Positions 22,437-55,653 of a stretch of DNA of 64,000 nt are shown here, one piece after another. Every line of letters starts with the position of its first letter. Within the stretch, counting starts at the first letter, position 1. Both the position numbers and the translations under genes were made by a program. The stretch is from an uncultured Fibrobacter sp. (lineage in GTDB: Bacteria > Fibrobacterota > Fibrobacteria > Fibrobacterales > Fibrobacteraceae), in contig CAMHDS010000001.1 in the NCBI GenBank assembly GCA_946183925.1, positions 62,001 through 126,000 on the forward strand, written 5' to 3'. The notes below the pieces were generated by a model. It saw nothing but the letters and a program-made list of their open reading frames with translations, was not told the DNA's origin and made no database searches.

Positions 22437-22468
22437 CAAAGCCCTCTCTTGCGAGAGGGCTTTTTTTT
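22437..22468 (+). terminator. Rho-independent terminator after tRNA-Asp
   Basis: AAAGCCCTCTC - TTGC - GAGAGGGCTTT followed by a run of T. Confidence 0.9.
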
Positions 22469-22470
22469 AA

Positions 22471-22564
22471 CGACCGCTCGGGCTAAATTTGGGAAAAACT
22501 TCTCTGGTTAGCCCTCGCTCTCGCAACCGCCCCTAGTTAATACTAGGGGCTTTGTTGCTCACCG
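22471..22564 (+). repeat. Structured intergenic element, copy A (about 94 nt)
   Basis: Begins AACGACCGCTCG and ends GTTGCTCACCG. It can form GGGCTAA/TTAGCCC enclosing about 25 nt, then a nested structure GCAAC...GTTGC around GCCCCTAG-TTAATA-CTAGGGGC. A second copy at 34858-34950 shares the order, the TTAATA loop and the flanks, but has different, still complementary stem bases. It lies after the tRNA terminator, in a gap before a minus-strand gene. Whether it is an RNA or a DNA repeat is unknown. Confidence 0.65.
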
Positions 22565-22608
22565 AAAGAGAGGGCTTTTACTTTTTATACCCAGCAGGAG
22601 AAACGAAA

Positions 22609-22678: not shown

Positions 22679-25600
22679 TTACTCGATGGTAATGAGGGTA
22701 ATGGTGCGCTTGCCGACCTTGATCGGCTTGCTCACATCGACACCCTTCTTGGCCTTCTTGGACGGGTCATTGGCCCAGCCTTCCTTGAGCTTTTCGGAGC
22801 TGCGGTCCAGAGTCTGGACGGTAGCCTTGCCGGAGAAGCCAGGGATGGAGAGCTTCAGTTCGTAGTCGCTGTAGGGGTTCTTGTTGATCACCAACAGGGA
22901 CTTCTTCTTGCCGTTCTCGGTGTAGTAGGTCGTGATGAGGGATTCCTTGTCACCGGAGATTTCGGTCTTGAGGAGCTTGCCGCGGAGAGCGTCAGAAGCC
23001 ATCTGGAATGCCCAGTAGCTCGGACGCGGGCAGTTCATGCATTCTTCTGCAGAACGGGTCAGGTAACCGTAGTCACCGCCTTCCGGAGTGATGTCGTTGT
23101 GGATATCCCAGTACTGTGCGTTGTCCACGTTTTCGGTGGCAAGCATAGCCAGGTAGTCAGCAACGAACAGGCCGTTTTCAAGAGAAATGGTCTGCGGGCC
23201 CGGGTTGAAGTCCACGGAGTTCCATTCCGTGAGCCACAGTTCGAACTTCTTTTCCTTATTGAAGTGCTTGGTCCACTTGTCCACCAGCTTGTGCAGGCGG
23301 CTGTAGATAGGCACCAGATCCTGCGGAGCAGAGAGCATGGCGAAGTCATTTTCTTCACCGTAGTGCTGCGGGTAGTGGTGAACAATGATACCGTCGGCAA
23401 TATCGCCGGTTTCACGAAGCACGTTGTCGTTCCATTCGCCATCCAGCACGCCGAGCACGGCCACCTTGATGGTGGGGTCAACCTTCTTCATGGCTTCGAT
23501 GAACTTGCGAGCGCGTTTACCATAGATGGTACCGCCATCCTTACCATACTTTTCGTAGTAGGGGTGCCAGTTACCATAGACTTCGTTACCGATTTCCCAG
23601 TACTTGATGCCGGCCTTCTTGTCGACGTTGGTGTGCTTCACCCAGGCAGCGGCTTCCTGTTCAGTACCGGAACCGAAGTTCACAGTGAACATGGCGTTAG
23701 AACCAGTCTTCTTCAACCAGGCGAGGAATTCGTCGGTATCCACCATCCAGTCGTGGTTGTCGAGGATTTCTTTCCAGTGGTCGTCATCGGCACGGAGACC
23801 GCCCGGGTAACGGATGATGCCGTGGTTGATGCGCTTGGCGTATTCAGCCGTCTGCACCTTGAACTTGGGGTTGTCCAGCATGTCGCCATCCCAGAGGGCG
23901 GCGTTGATACCGAAGAGGCCGCCCGAGATGTTCGGGTTGATCACGTCGCCGGTACCCTTGACTTCAACCTTCACGAGAGCCGGACGGTCGGCAGCCTTCA
24001 CTTCCTTCTGGTTGGTGAGCTTGATGTTGTCCACTTCGAAGCTACCATTGGAACCTTCTCCACCCGGTTTGAAGTCGAGAGAGACAACGCCCTTCAGGTC
24101 GAACACGCCATTTTCCTTGGCGGTAGGCGGCTGATAGTAGGGGAACTTGCTGAACGCACGGAACGGTACAATCACAGTGGTGCGGCCACGAGGCACACCG
24201 GTGTTGGCAACGAAGAGTTCATTGCCGGCATCACCGATCTGAACGGTAATGGACTGCCATGCACGTTCGGAGTAAACGTCGAACATAATGCCCCAGTGCT
24301 TGGTCCAGTCGCGATCGGCGGCAGAACGCTTGCTCTTGACCATGTCGAACACGATATCGACCCAGTCGGACATTTCGAAATGCTTCACGTTGAGGGAATT
24401 GCCGTCAAGCTTGGAGCTCTTGAAAGGCACTTCCACTTCGACCTTGGACTTCGGGCCCTTGGAGGGTTCCCACACATCACCCTTAAACTTGTCTTCGAAG
24501 TCGGTGATGATCAGGTCCTTCTCCTTGGAGTTCCAGTTATCCCACTTGATATCCGGGTCAACCCAGTCGATATTCTCGGTGAAGGTAATCTGATCGACAA
24601 AGATGGTCACAGGAGCGGGCTTGCCCGGTTCGCCCTGGTTTTCGCCCTTGCCTACAGAGAAGCGGATTTCCTGGATCTTGTTCCACTGGATATCCTTGGC
24701 AACTTCGGCCTGCTTGTTGGCGTCCCAAGCCTTGCCCTTGTCGCCAAACTTCTTCAGAGGAATCTTCACCAACTTCCAATCGGTGCCCACCTTGGCGCCT
24801 TCGATCCAGTCGTTCAGGCTGATCTTGGTCTGGCTCTTGATGTCGTTACCCTGGTTGTCCAGAAGACCCACGTAGACCTTTTCGCCACCGAGCTTACCCT
24901 TGATCCAGAAGTAGAGACCACCCTTATTGCGAACCTTGGAAAGGTCAGCATACTTGCCTTCGCCCATGGAGTAGGTCACACCGGACCAGTCGTTGTTGTC
25001 GATGTACAGGGCAAGCACATTGGGGTTGCCTGCCGTCTTGGACTTGGCTTCGCGCTGAGCCGAAAGACCACCGTAGCTGTAGCTGAAGCCCTTCAGGTTG
25101 TTATCGTAGAAGGTGACCAGAGTCTTGGCCTTGCCATCCAACTTTTCCGGGTTCTTCGGACCGTCAATGACGTCTTCGTTTTCATCCCAGTAAACAATCT
25201 TGGCCTTGGGTTTTGCCTTCTTGTTACCCTTCACGATTTCGATGTTATCTACCCAGACTTCGAAATCCTTGGCTCCGCTCTTGTCGATGGAGAATCGGAT
25301 TTCAGCAATCTTGTCCCAATCGATACGGGCAGGGAATTCAGACTTGCGGGTGTTATCCCAGTAGAGACCGCGGTCCGGGAAATCCACCAGAGGAATGGAA
25401 ACCTTTTTCCAGTCCGTAGTGATAGCACCGCCCTCGATGTACTTATTCATCGGGAGAACAACCTGAGTCTTCTTACCATCGGAAACTTCTTCGTCCAGAA
25501 GACCAACCTTCACGGATTCGCCGCCCTTCTTACCCTTGATCATGAATTCCAGCTTGGAATCCAGCATGTACTTGTTCAAATCAAAGGTTTCGTTGTATAG

Positions 25601-25855
25601 GCAGACGGAAGCGCCAGAATACTCACTGGGATCTAGCTTAATATCCAGTGCGGACTTGGACTTGAAACCGCCATCCTTGGTAATGGTGATTCCCTTGCTG
25701 GAACCGCCGTAAGCGTAGTCAAAGCCACCCTGACGATATTGGTCGTCAAAGAACTTGTAAACTACCAAACGGGGCGGTTTCTGCTGAGCCATAGCAGTCG
25801 TAGTCAACAGCCCTAGCAAGGCTATCGAGGCGACCTTCAGAGATTGCTTCATCAT
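22679..25855 (-). CDS. cel51A: Secreted multidomain GH51 glycosidase, resembles Fibrobacter endoglucanase F (Cel51A)
   Basis: About 1058 residues, near 118 kDa. The ATG at 25855 has AAGG seven bases upstream and is preferred to the ATG at 25864; residues below are numbered from 25864. Signal peptide 1-26. Two related beta-sandwich modules (33-213 and 245-430) share GFDYAYGG/GFSYSYGG and KGKKGGESVKVGLLD/KGKLGGEKVYVGLLD; a third (449-618) is CBM11-like. The catalytic domain (635-1061) has WEIGNE (acid/base E761) and LWLTEWN (nucleophile E880), as in clan A family GH51. Size and layout recall F. succinogenes EGF/EG2 with CBM30- and CBM11-type modules; arabinofuranosidase activity is the alternative for GH51. 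Confidence 0.85.
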   Translation of the reverse strand: MMKQSLKVASIALLGLLTTTAMAQQKPPRLVVYKFFDDQYRQGGFDYAYGGSSKGITITKDGGFKSKSALDIKLDPSEYSGASVCLYNETFDLNKYMLDSKLEFMIKGKKGGESVKVGLLDEEVSDGKKTQVVLPMNKYIEGGAITTDWKKVSIPLVDFPDRGLYWDNTRKSEFPARIDWDKIAEIRFSIDKSGAKDFEVWVDNIEIVKGNKKAKPKAKIVYWDENEDVIDGPKNPEKLDGKAKTLVTFYDNNLKGFSYSYGGLSAQREAKSKTAGNPNVLALYIDNNDWSGVTYSMGEGKYADLSKVRNKGGLYFWIKGKLGGEKVYVGLLDNQGNDIKSQTKISLNDWIEGAKVGTDWKLVKIPLKKFGDKGKAWDANKQAEVAKDIQWNKIQEIRFSVGKGENQGEPGKPAPVTIFVDQITFTENIDWVDPDIKWDNWNSKEKDLIITDFEDKFKGDVWEPSKGPKSKVEVEVPFKSSKLDGNSLNVKHFEMSDWVDIVFDMVKSKRSAADRDWTKHWGIMFDVYSERAWQSITVQIGDAGNELFVANTGVPRGRTTVIVPFRAFSKFPYYQPPTAKENGVFDLKGVVSLDFKPGGEGSNGSFEVDNIKLTNQKEVKAADRPALVKVEVKGTGDVINPNISGGLFGINAALWDGDMLDNPKFKVQTAEYAKRINHGIIRYPGGLRADDDHWKEILDNHDWMVDTDEFLAWLKKTGSNAMFTVNFGSGTEQEAAAWVKHTNVDKKAGIKYWEIGNEVYGNWHPYYEKYGKDGGTIYGKRARKFIEAMKKVDPTIKVAVLGVLDGEWNDNVLRETGDIADGIIVHHYPQHYGEENDFAMLSAPQDLVPIYSRLHKLVDKWTKHFNKEKKFELWLTEWNSVDFNPGPQTISLENGLFVADYLAMLATENVDNAQYWDIHNDITPEGGDYGYLTRSAEECMNCPRPSYWAFQMASDALRGKLLKTEISGDKESLITTYYTENGKKKSLLVINKNPYSDYELKLSIPGFSGKATVQTLDRSSEKLKEGWANDPSKKAKKGVDVSKPIKVGKRTITLITIE

Positions 25856-25958
25856 ATATCGCATCCTTATGTTGTTGATTTTTGTTTAAAATTAAACTTT
25901 TCCTACAGAAACACGAAGTTTCCGTCTAATCTTTGTGTGTACGGCCGAAACCAGCGGC

Positions 25959-33690: not shown

Positions 33691-34857
33691 ATGAACAACC
33701 GCATCCTCAACATTCTCGTTCCGGGAATCGGGCTCCCCCTTTCCCTGGGCACCGTCTACAACTATTCCCAGTACTCCGTCAACATCATGGAGTGCTTCGG
33801 AATTTCCAAGTTCCAGGCGGACATCGGTTTCACCCTGATCACCTTCTTCTTGGGGATGTGCGCCGCAACCTTCGGGCGCATGGTGGAACTGAACCCTAAG
33901 AGGATGTCGGTGGTTTCTACTACCCTGTTTGCCATCGGTATGTTCACCCTGTTTGCCGCCACCAAGTTCGGCATACTCCCGCTGTACTACATCGGCTGCT
34001 CCTTCATGGGAGCGGGAACGGGTATCGGCTACGTGTGCCCCATCAAGCAGTTGCTCTCCAACTTCAGCGACCACAAGGGCCTGGCCTCCGGACTTGCCAT
34101 TACCGGGTTTGGCGCAGGCAAGTTCGTTGCCGCCCCTGCCATCGAGGCACTTCTTGCAAACTTTGAACTGCCCTACCTGTTCCTGATTCTCGGATGCGCC
34201 TTCCTTACGGTCATGTCCGTATGCTCCTGGCTGTTCCGCCCCAATCCGGCCTTCATCATGACCAAGAAGACAGCCATTCCCTTCAAGGACCTGGTCCACA
34301 CCAAGTTCCTGACCATGGAATACGTTTCCATCTGGGTCATGTTCTGCATCAACATTTCCTGTGGTCTCGCCCTCATCGCCCAGGAAAAGAGCCTCCTGAA
34401 ATACCTGGGCTTCAAAGAAATTGCCCTCATCATGGCCCTTACCGCCGTGTTCAACGTGCTGGGCCGTTTCGGCATGAGCACCCTTTCTGACTATATCGGC
34501 CGTAAGGGAGCCTACCACTACGTCTGCTCCCTCAGCATCTTGGCGGCATTCCTCTGCTACACTGAACAGGCCTGGCTTGCCATTTGCGGTATCATGATGG
34601 TGGAATTCGCCTACGGCGGAAACTTCTCCGTACTGCCTAGTCTTCTGGCCAAGCGTTTCGGGACCTCCTGCGTTTCCACGGTACACGCCATGACATTATC
34701 CGGCTGGGGTATCGCGGGCATCATCGGCCCTACCCTCGGAAACATCTTTACGGGGAACAACCTGTTCCTGGTGCTAGGCGGACTTTACCTGTTCGGGTTC
34801 ACCATGATGGAAATCTTCGTGAAAAGGGATTCCCATCAGGAGATTAGGGGAGTATAA
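33691..34857 (+). CDS. MFS transporter, oxalate/formate antiporter-like (OFA) family
   Basis: 388 residues, about 12 TM helices. N-terminal PGIGLPLSLGTVYNYSQYSV and the ITFFLGMCAATFGRMVE loop fit the OFA branch; GAGTGIGYVCPIKQL and GRFGMSTLSDYIGRKGAYH are the conserved inter-helix motifs in both halves. OFA members carry small carboxylates. Starts 3 bp after the acyl-CoA synthetase stop, so uptake and activation are probably coupled. Its TAA stop is also the first bases of structured element B. Confidence 0.85.
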   Translation: MNNRILNILVPGIGLPLSLGTVYNYSQYSVNIMECFGISKFQADIGFTLITFFLGMCAATFGRMVELNPKRMSVVSTTLFAIGMFTLFAATKFGILPLYYIGCSFMGAGTGIGYVCPIKQLLSNFSDHKGLASGLAITGFGAGKFVAAPAIEALLANFELPYLFLILGCAFLTVMSVCSWLFRPNPAFIMTKKTAIPFKDLVHTKFLTMEYVSIWVMFCINISCGLALIAQEKSLLKYLGFKEIALIMALTAVFNVLGRFGMSTLSDYIGRKGAYHYVCSLSILAAFLCYTEQAWLAICGIMMVEFAYGGNFSVLPSLLAKRFGTSCVSTVHAMTLSGWGIAGIIGPTLGNIFTGNNLFLVLGGLYLFGFTMMEIFVKRDSHQEIRGV

Positions 34858-34950
34858 CGACCGTTCGCACTAAATTCAGGTGCTACATCTCCGGCCGGTG
34901 CTCACTCTCGCAACCACGCCTCGTTAATACGAGGCGTTTGTTGCTCACGG
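34858..34950 (+). repeat. Structured intergenic element, copy B (93 nt)
   Basis: Shares with copy A the start AACGACCG, the CTCTCGCAACC box, a TTAATA loop and the GTTGCTCAC end. Stems differ but pair: CGCCTCG/CGAGGCG around TTAATA, GCAAC/GTTGC outside it, and GCACT with GGTGC upstream. The ends GACCG and CGGTC can also pair. It occupies exactly the bases between the MFS stop codon and the hemL stop codon. Confidence 0.65.
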
Positions 34951-36237
34951 TCATAAAGCTTTAAAAACTTTCCTGGCGGCATCGACGGTACGGTCGATGT
35001 CGTTTTCTGTATGGGCGGCACTCACGAAGATGGCCTCGAACTGGCTAGGGGCCAGGTAGATGCCCTGCTCCAGCATGCCCAAGAAATAACGACGGAACAG
35101 TTCCAGGTCAGATTTCTGCACATCGGCAAAACACTGCACCGGACCTTCGGTAAAGAAGATACAGCCCATGGAGCCCACCTGGTTTGTGGAAATCGCAATT
35201 CCCGCAGAGGCGGCTGCGTCCTTGAGGCCTTCCAGCAGGCACCTAGTCATCGATTCCGCATGCACGTAGTATTCGGGATGGGAGTTCAATTCTCGCATGG
35301 TGGCAAGACCTGCCGCCATGGCCACCGGGTTACCAGAAAGGGTTCCCGCCTGGTAGATTCCGCCCAAAGGTGCAATCTGCTGCATCACGTCCAGACGACC
35401 ACCGTAGGCGCCCACCGGCATGCCTCCGCCGATAATCTTTCCGAAAGTGGTCAAATCCGGCTTGATGCCGTACAGTCCCTGGGCGCAGTGGATCCCTACG
35501 CGGAAACCCGTCATCACCTCGTCCACAATCAGGAGGGCGCCGTGCTTCTGGGTCTCTTCGGAAAGGGCCTGCAAAAATTCCGGCCTGGCGGGCACTACCC
35601 CCATATTTCCGGCCACAGGCTCCACAATTACGCCGGCAATTTCGTCGCCAATCTGGTCGAACAGTTCCCTAACTCCCGCCACATCGTTGTACTGTAGCGT
35701 GAGCGTATACTTTGCGAGGTCCGCCGGAACGCCCTTGCTGCTGGGCTTGCCCGTAGTGAGCATCCCCGAGCCCGCCTTGATAAGCAGGCTGTCGCTATGG
35801 CCATGGTAACAGCCTTCAAACTTCACAATCTTGTCGCGTCCCGTAAACCCGCGAGCCGCACGGATGGCGCTCATGGTGGCCTCTGTGCCACTGTTCACCA
35901 TGCGGATCATCTCCACGCTGGGCACCAGGCTCATCACCAGCTTAGCCAGTTCCGATTCTAGTCCACAGGGGGCACCAAAACTAAGGCCATTCTTGGCAGT
36001 CTCTGCCACCGCGCTAATAACCGCATCGTGAGCATGTCCCAAAAGCATGGGGCCCCAGCTGCCCACGTAATCGATATAGTCGTTACCGTCCACATCGTAG
36101 ATGTGGCTACCCTTCGCGCGGGCGATAAAAGGAGGTGTGGCCCCCACGTTGCTGTATGCACGTACCGGGCTGTTCACGCCGCCCGGCATCAAATTCTTGG
36201 CTTCGGTAAAAAGTTTTTCGCTAATGGAGTGGTTCAT
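34951..36237 (-). CDS. hemL: Glutamate-1-semialdehyde 2,1-aminomutase HemL
   Basis: 428 residues from ATG 36237 (an in-frame TTG at 36246 is less likely). PLP enzyme of the C5 pathway that makes 5-aminolevulinate. Motifs: [37 protein letters not shown], and the PLP lysine K267 in [17 protein letters not shown]. Full length. hemB lies upstream on the same strand with a lipoprotein gene between; hemA is not in the window. Confidence 0.96.
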
Positions 36238-36251
36238 AGCCCCCAAAATAG

Positions 36252-53482: not shown

Positions 53483-55612
53483 ATGAAAAACATCGAAAAA
53501 CACAGAAACATCGGTATTTCTGCCCACATCGACTCGGGTAAGACTACCCTTACCGAACGCATCCTCTACTTCACAAAGCGTATCCACGCTATCCACGAAG
53601 TTCGTGGTAAAGACGGCGTCGGCGCCACGATGGACTCCATGGAACTTGAACGCGAACGCGGCATCACGATTCAGTCCGCTGCTACGTTTGCAAACTGGAC
53701 CCACACCAAGTCCGGCGAAGCCGACTCCATCAACATCATCGATACCCCGGGGCACGTGGACTTCACGATTGAAGTGGAACGTTCTCTCCGCGTGCTTGAC
53801 GGCGCTATCCTCGTTCTTACCGGCGTGGAAGGCGTTCAGTCCCAGTCTATTACCGTCGACCGCCAGATGAAGCGCTACCATGTGCCGCGCGTCGTGTTCG
53901 TCAACAAGTGCGACCGCTCCGGTGCTAACCCGCTCCGCGTTGCCGAAATGCTCCGCGAAAAGCTCAACCACAAGCCCTGCGTGATGCAGATTCCTATCGG
54001 TCTCGAAGACCAACTGAAGGGCGTGGTCGACCTCGTCGAAATGAAGGCCTACTACTTCGAAGGCGCCAACGGCGACGAAATGATCGAAAAGGAAATTCCG
54101 GCCGAACTCGTTGACCAGGCCAACGAATACCGCACCAGGCTCATCGACTGCTGCGCCGACTACAGCGACGAAATCATGGAAAAGGCCATGGAAGGCATCT
54201 ACGGTGTCGACGAAATCGACAAGGGCCTCATCAAGAAGACCATCCGCGAAGCCACCATCCGTCTCGACATCACCCCGGTGTTCATGGGTTCCGCCCACAA
54301 GAACATTGGCGTGCAGAAGCTCCTCGACGGTGTTATCGACTACCTCCCCTGCCCGACCGACGTTGAAAACAAGGCTCTCGACCTCGACAACAACGAAGCC
54401 GAAGTTATCCTCAAGAGCGAAGACAACGCTCCGCTCGTCTGCTACGCGTTCAAGCTCGTGAACGACCGCTATGGCCAGCTCACCTACATCCGCGTGTACC
54501 AGGGCCAGCTCAAGAAGGGCGACATGATCACCAACATGGCCACCGGCAAGAAGGTGTCCGTGGGCCGTCTCGTGCGTATGCACGCCGACGAAATGGTGGA
54601 TATCACCGAAGCCGGCGCCGGCGACATCGTGGCCCTGTTCGGTATCGACTGTGCCTCCGGTACTACCTTCACCGACGGCAAGAACCACTACAACATGACC
54701 TCTATGCACGTGCCGAACCCCGTGATCGAACTCGTGATTGAAGCCAAGAACCGCGACGACCTGGACAACATGTCCAAGGCCCTGAACCGCTTCACCAAGG
54801 AAGACCCCACTTTCCAGGTGGAAGTGAACAAGGAATCCGGCGAAACCATCATCAAGGGTATGGGCGAACTTCACCTGGACGTGTACATCGAACGTATGCG
54901 CCGCGAATACAAGGTGGACGTGCAGACCGGTGCCCCGCAGGTGGCCTACCGCGAAACCATTACCCGCGAAGCCAAGTTCGAATACACCCACAAGAAGCAG
55001 ACCGGTGGTTCGGGTCAGTTCGCCAAGATGTCCGGCGTGATGCGCCCGATGCCTGTCGAAGGCGACTCCGAAAAGGTCTACAACTTCGTCAACTCCGTCG
55101 TCGGCGGACGTATTCCCAAGGAATACATCCCGTCTTGCGATAAGGGTTTCCAGAGCTGCATGGAAGCCGGTTCCCTCATCGGGTTCCCGGTTGTCGGCAT
55201 CGAAATGGAAGTCCAGGATGGTGCTTTCCACCCGGTCGACTCCTCTGACATGGCGTTCCAGATTTGCGCCCGCATGGCTTTCCGCGAAGCTTTCGCCAAG
55301 GCCGGCGCCCAGATTCTCGAACCTATCATGAAGGTCGAAATCGCCACTCCGACGGAATTCCAGGGTAACGTCGTGGGTAACGTGTCCCAGCGTCGTGGTT
55401 CCATCACCGGAACCAGCGAAGAAATGGGCACCACCACCATTACCGCCGAAGTCCCGCTTTCTGAAATGTTCGGTTATGCTACCGACCTGCGTTCCATGAC
55501 CCAGGGTAAGGCCGAATTCACCATGGAATTCGCGAAGTACGCTCCGGTGCCGAAGAACATCCAGGAAGAACTGATCAAGAAGTACGGCGACAAGGCCAAG
55601 GCTAGAGCATAG
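53483..55612 (+). CDS. fusA: Translation elongation factor G, mtEFG1/spdEFG1-like
   Basis: 709 residues. GTPase of ribosomal translocation: G1 [10 protein letters not shown]2 region [25 protein letters not shown]3 DTPGHVDF, G4 NKCD, followed by domains II-V ([20 protein letters not shown]). The [14 protein letters not shown] and [19 protein letters not shown] wording matches mitochondrial EF-G1 and the spirochaete/planctomycete spdEFG1 group rather than the common EF-G (HIDAGKTTTTERIL, MDWMEQEQERGITITSAAT). Codon use is strongly biased, fitting high expression. No rps12/rps7/tuf neighbours. Confidence 0.93.
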
Positions 55613-55653
55613 TAAGGCACTCGCCTAGAAGCGCTCGGTTTCAAGACAACATA

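Follow-up and report, generated by a model that had tools for sequence, protein, structure and literature searches.

Two intergenic stretches of the window, the 64,000-nt segment of an uncultured Fibrobacter genome analysed here, carry the same motifs around stems of different sequence, and raise the question of what kind of element has been placed there. In the initial annotation they were described as two copies of one structured element, either an undescribed RNA or a structure-dependent repeat. Both copies were recovered on the + strand with the layout, motifs and stems as described, about 2 nt to the left of the positions first given. Copy 1 (22469..22562, +) was located from the sequence and matched a covariance model at 103.8 bits (model match 22472-22562), and copy 2 (34856..34948, +) matched at 102.5 bits (34859-34948) and was placed with the help of gene calls. 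Both are bounded by AACGACCG at the start and GTTGCTCAC at the end. Hairpin 1 of copy 1 (22480..22514, +) is formed by pairing of GGGCTAA (22480-22486) with TTAGCCC (22508-22514), as seen in sequence and fold. Hairpin 2 (22523..22558, +), as seen in sequence and covariation, has an outer stem GCAAC/GTTGC, an inner stem GCCCCTAG/CTAGGGGC and the loop TTAATA (22537-22542). The corresponding hairpins of copy 2, taken from sequence and fold, pair GCACT (34867-34871) with GGTGC (34897-34901; hairpin 1, 34867..34901, +) and combine the same outer stem with an inner CGCCTCG/CGAGGCG and the loop TTAATA (34924-34929; hairpin 2, 34910..34944, +). Stems of both hairpins therefore differ between copies and yet pair in each, with one G-T in GCACT/GGTGC. 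RNA folding of the + strand gave -42.1 kcal/mol for copy 1 (z = -6.6) and -32.2 kcal/mol for copy 2 (z = -4.3), and none of 200 shuffles was as stable.

Copy 2 lies between two genes. By gene calls, its GACCG begins 1 nt past the TAA (34855-34857) of an upstream MFS transporter gene (33691..34857, +; ORF, Pfam MFS_1), whose stop abuts the copy in sense, and the stop of a convergent, hemL-like class-III aminotransferase gene (34951..36246, -; ORF, Pfam Aminotran_3) lies 2 nt past its other end. Copy 1 lies just 3' of the intrinsic terminator of a tRNA pair (22438..22467, +; identified in the sequence), a site that is empty in the related genomes G002 and G017. The 3' half of this terminator is partly repeated past copy 1 at 22572-22585 (GAGAGGGCTTTT), which places copy 1 inside a duplicated terminator. 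The copy is adjoined by the gene of a large minus-strand protein (22679-25864) with CBM30 and CBM11 carbohydrate-binding domains. Copy 2 is thus of a stop-adjacent kind and copy 1 of a behind-terminator kind.

The window's genome (a 2.76-Mb draft, 81% complete, 167 contigs) was searched for further copies. The pattern GCAACC-N(14-40)-GTTGCTCAC gave 13 matches and none in a reversed control, and blastn with copy 1 returned 22 places, so the window copies are not chance resemblances. A count of two proved an understatement: at least 32 copies are present in this genome. A covariance model built from 17 copies matched 18 of 18 same-genus relatives and 0 of 12 more distant genomes in an initial search. 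Across 168 genomes of the phylum it matched 84, made up of 78 of 80 Fibrobacter genomes and six in two sister genera (g10, g15), and the remaining phylum genomes gave no match. Up to at least 36 copies were found per genome; these numbers are lower bounds, as a limited number of candidates was scored at the first pass, and distant copies are under-counted because the model was seeded from one genome. When the exact pattern was searched in a collection of 84,980 species (one genome each), all of the matches listed belonged to Fibrobacter, Fibrobacteraceae or Fibrobacterales, and included Fibrobacter succinogenes, Fibrobacter sp. and a few Fibrobacterales or Fibrobacteraceae MAGs. The exact pattern had no match in IMG/VR viral contigs, and virus-borne dispersal was rejected. 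In Rfam, tRNAs were the sole matches in the window, with nothing near the gathering threshold at copy 1, and the open-licence papers searched contained no account of such a repeat in Fibrobacter. The description as an undescribed RNA or structure-dependent repeat is supported by this genus-wide distribution and by stems that keep their pairing in 93-95% of cells.

The unit is about 90 nt long and reads GACC - hairpin 1 - TCTC - hairpin 2 - TCAC(GG), the linkers GACC, TCTC and TCAC being near-invariant and single-stranded. Near the base of hairpin 1 there is usually a 2x2 mismatch (G-Y-TC-G ... C-TC-R-C, with covarying Y and R), replaced in some copies by four perfect pairs. In hairpin 2 the TTAATA-type loop is conserved, and there is an internal bulge (CTT/TTT). 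Of the pair cells in 99 distinct copies, 94.7% were paired (70% when shuffled, at most 52% when slid). All 20 of 20 pairs covaried with changes on both sides, none of 500 shuffles being as good, and 431 cells held double changes against 140 +- 8. A second alignment, mostly of other copies, gave the same picture (92.9% of pair cells paired). Tandem arrays with a period of about 95 nt made up 31 of 155 arrays, and a partial unit, the first 22 nt again, followed the last unit in 22 of 155 (1 of 775 in a control). The ends GACCG...CGGTC are present in some copies (copy 2, L007, L135) and absent from most.

Part of this covariation has an origin other than stepwise change. Among 159 copies, 146 hairpin-1 and 116 hairpin-2 sequences were counted, and 19 exact hairpin-2 sequences were each combined with two or more hairpin-1 sequences. 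Where different species carry the element at the same gene, they may have one hairpin in common while the other is replaced, as at pta (G003/G010) and gdhA (G004/G010). Hairpins are exchanged between copies as whole modules while the linkers stay fixed, and part of the covariation is accordingly whole-hairpin exchange. The initial reading of the covarying stems calls for one refinement: much of the covariation comes from whole-hairpin replacement and not from stepwise compensatory mutation. Since G-U pairs also make up just 1.4% of pairs, covariation alone is no proof of selection at the RNA level. G-U and A-C cells numbered 13:12 on the first 99 copies and 53:32 on 209 copies, 15 of the latter G-U cells coming from one position of the second alignment; in the same DNA, the comparison gave 154:76 for terminators and 690:744 for non-terminator hairpins. 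Pairing chemistry alone gives no decision between RNA and DNA, and strand assignment from G-U counts was dropped, 13:12 and 53:32 being too weak to decide.

Strand was approached through gene context, with copies grouped into 155 arrays from stretches of Fibrobacter genomes (mostly drafts) and genes called for this analysis with a codon-model caller; orthologous copies are counted among the arrays, and independence is incomplete. A gene was called on the GACCG side of 140 arrays and lay in sense in 116 of these. In 72 of the 140 a sense stop codon lay no more than 12 nt from the array's start, which mostly followed it by 0-4 nt, and several arrays provide the final bases of the stop codon. The opposite geometry, a convergent gene's stop within 12 nt of the other end, was found in just 3 arrays. 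The strand as written is therefore the mRNA sense strand, which largely settles a point that two copies had been thought unable to fix. Of all non-coding TAA sites in the same DNA, only 4.7% lie at a sense stop; over an equal range of distances the figure for arrays was 71 of 140 (51%; P = 3e-55). Near-complete genomes taken singly agreed (G003, 12/25; G005, 14/25; G010, 15/27). A terminator-like hairpin with a T-tract was present within 150 nt downstream of 47 of the 72 stop-adjacent arrays, which places those arrays in predicted 3' UTRs, and directly upstream of none of the 72. Among the other 83 arrays, 18 start directly behind a terminator (1.2% for random positions). Only 2 of 155 arrays ended 12 nt or less from the start of a downstream gene, and a riboswitch or 5' leader was rejected on this count.

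The genes that bear arrays include, among 10 chosen (non-random) examples, those for EF-G, EF-P, NADP glutamate dehydrogenase, citrate synthase, serine hydroxymethyltransferase, phosphate acetyltransferase, class II aldolase, malate dehydrogenase, rubrerythrin and a methylmalonyl-CoA decarboxylase-type subunit, the last below the family cut-off. Codon adaptation, measured against ribosomal-protein codon usage as a proxy for expression, was higher in bearing genes than in other genes at the same loci in two clades (0.69 vs 0.53, P = 2e-9; 0.66 vs 0.50, P = 1e-4), and the difference stands at several length cut-offs.

Occupancy varies among relatives. The site just 3' of the EF-G gene (53483-55612; Pfam EF-G domains) is empty in the window (55610..55616, +; stop at 55612) and holds elements in G016 and G010 by alignment. 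On the hemL side (34856-34953) the element is forward in the window's genome, inverted in G002 (L135) between GACCG...CGGTC, and absent from G016; the opposite orientation in G002 reflects either an inversion or an independent insertion. Differences between occupied and empty sites were also seen at the tRNA terminator, nth, leuB and other loci, and no constant target-site duplication was seen at the occupied and empty sites compared. Bearing orthologues were common to genomes more often than expected (G003/G010, 5 vs 0.13; G005/G010, 6 vs 0.16), counts that rest on incomplete sampling, and were common across divergent clades too, often with different hairpins. Either functional retention or a repeated targeting of these genes would fit such sharing above chance.

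Several copies showed further local features. At leuB (L013:1150-1300) the stem-1 5' arm coincides with the gene's last codons (GCTTTGGCTTAA) and is complemented by the 3' arm; the last-codon bases recur behind the element, and the site is empty in G002. Copying of stem-1 arms from the host gene, though the match at this locus is striking, is not claimed, as similar stem types recur elsewhere. In copies from several genomes (L084:3299-3466, L161, L181, L182 and L194) the TTAA|TA loop of hairpin 2 is interrupted by a different small hairpin-rich sequence (ATAAACCTAAGCCGAACACAGCAGAAACAAG...), which looks like a second small mobile element landing in that loop. Another hairpin element (CCACCTAAAGGTGGCCATG...) splits the linker between hairpins 1 and 2 (L011:1425-1500, L028:204-347), and in G014 and G015 some copies have hairpin 2 split by a third sequence (AAAGCGTGCAAAACGAG...; L107:5072-5240, L169).

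The observations to be joined are the family, its structure, strand polarity, 3'-UTR placement in about half of the arrays, codon-adaptation bias, turnover and module exchange. The two-hairpin element probably represents an mRNA tail module of an undescribed kind, one that is also mobile and recombining. Its fuller description, as a mobile or recombining 3'-UTR hairpin module that acts like E. coli REP and is dispersed in Fibrobacter and close relatives, is favoured with about even confidence. By analogy, the hairpin pair in a 3' UTR would work as a REP behind a stop codon does, blocking 3'-to-5' exonucleases or acting on terminating ribosomes. The element may thereby govern how stable abundant mRNAs are and how much they yield, a role that would hold it at the same genes. 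A DNA process, either mobile or of the gene-conversion type and using the conserved linkers, would create new sites and hairpins, and the spreading enzyme would be something other than a REP transposase carried by most of these genomes. Against a 3'-UTR module stand the roughly half of the arrays that lie away from a stop codon, among them the 18 of 83 behind a terminator, where the upstream gene's transcript would as a rule already be over. G-U pairs, rare and modestly in excess of A-C, speak only weakly for selection at the RNA level, and genes with strong expression may also be preferred insertion targets. ProQ, considered as a 3'-UTR partner, is absent, and a ProQ partnership was rejected.

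The strongest rival, judged somewhat less probable, is a mobile DNA element that is selfish and serves no function in the host, and whose insertion prefers gene 3' ends in a fixed orientation. Its machinery, possibly supplied in trans and acting on hairpin single-stranded DNA, would have a TAA-like motif, the stop codon or a terminator T-tract as target, and pairing in the stems would be maintained by a need for folding during transposition or by hairpin-templated repair that keeps palindromes perfect. Presence and absence among close relatives, tandem arrays with trailing partial units, the opposite orientation at the hemL site of G002, the arrays directly behind terminators and the few G-U pairs all speak for such an element. 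It is opposed by an enrichment at sense stops far beyond that of a TAA target (51% vs 4.7%), by bearing orthologues common to divergent clades and by the lack of a constant target duplication at the sites compared. It is also opposed by the distribution of REP-type transposases: a search for PF01797 (Y1 REP transposase) gave nothing in the 81%-complete genome of the window, and of 19 Fibrobacter genomes searched 13 lacked it, among them the near-complete G003 and G010, which hold at least 32 and at least 34 copies. Dependence on a REP transposase was rejected, as PF01797 is absent from most many-copy genomes.

A bolder form of the favoured mRNA-tail module, in which a mobile RNA-structured module is placed or kept in sense behind the stops of the most-translated mRNAs, perhaps by mRNA- or translation-coupled insertion, is regarded as unlikely. 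The hairpins would then be interchangeable cassettes swapped via the linkers, and the whole a genus-wide self-spreading 3'-UTR system and not a classical REP. Less likely still is a family of stand-alone small RNA genes with their own promoters, for which the position behind genes would be incidental: the stable fold, conserved unpaired linkers and genus-wide conservation would suit it, but sense abutment to stop codons leaves those arrays no promoter room, and sRNA genes do not usually form tandem arrays or exchange hairpins. An intrinsic terminator family is the least probable reading and was rejected as a stand-alone function, since the strong GC-rich hairpin 2 at gene 3' ends with its following short CTT or TTT is accompanied by no T-tract (TTTGTTGC follows hairpin 2 and pairs back with GCAAC), a separate terminator lies downstream in 47 of 72 stop-adjacent arrays, and copy 1 is already behind a good terminator.

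An abundant element with no match in Rfam or the searched open-licence papers is thus present in a dominant cellulose-degrading rumen genus, as a mobile structured repeat tied with strict strand polarity to the stops of codon-adapted genes. It has long been debated whether repeats of this sort are selfish DNA or working parts of 3' UTRs, and here natural pairs of occupied and empty sites, together with the same gene carrying different hairpins, make the question directly testable. Swapped hairpins between fixed linkers are also a warning that covariation among repeat copies can stem from module exchange.

Several known systems invite comparison. MITEs, derivatives of DDE transposons, have terminal inverted repeats and a constant target-site duplication; in the Fibrobacter element the ends GACCG...CGGTC occur in some copies and are absent from most, and no constant duplication was seen at the occupied and empty sites compared. 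The bcr, BOX, ERIC and Correia types are small dispersed structured repeats. The Fibrobacter element resembles them in being short, non-coding, folded, genus-restricted and present or absent at orthologous sites, and differs in its strict strand polarity to stop codons, codon-adapted host genes and modular hairpin exchange. The TAACTGA repeats of Beggiatoaceae are likewise oriented intergenic repeats proposed to act on mRNA (PMC4679880). They are heptamers mostly oriented towards the start codon of the downstream gene (PMC4679880), unlike the two-hairpin unit behind stop codons. The closest parallel is with the REP/BIME repeats of E. coli, which are also dispersed, palindromic and intergenic, and many of which lie near stop codons: 260 of 496 are within 15 nt of an upstream stop codon, as quoted in PMC12306157 from an earlier study, beside the 72 of 140 arrays within 12 nt in sense found here. 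REPs in 3' UTRs of E. coli are reported to stabilise mRNA, and those less than 16 nt from a stop codon to have an effect on ribosomes (PMC12306157). The element was not filed as a REP because the Y1 REP transposase is absent from most many-copy genomes, the window's draft genome and most relatives having no RAYT transposase, and it may still work like one. In build it departs from the single short palindrome with a GTAG/GGAG foot: by alignment, the Fibrobacter unit of about 90 nt joins two dissimilar hairpins with exchangeable stems through the fixed linkers GACC, TCTC and TCAC, and is set in sense with the upstream gene.
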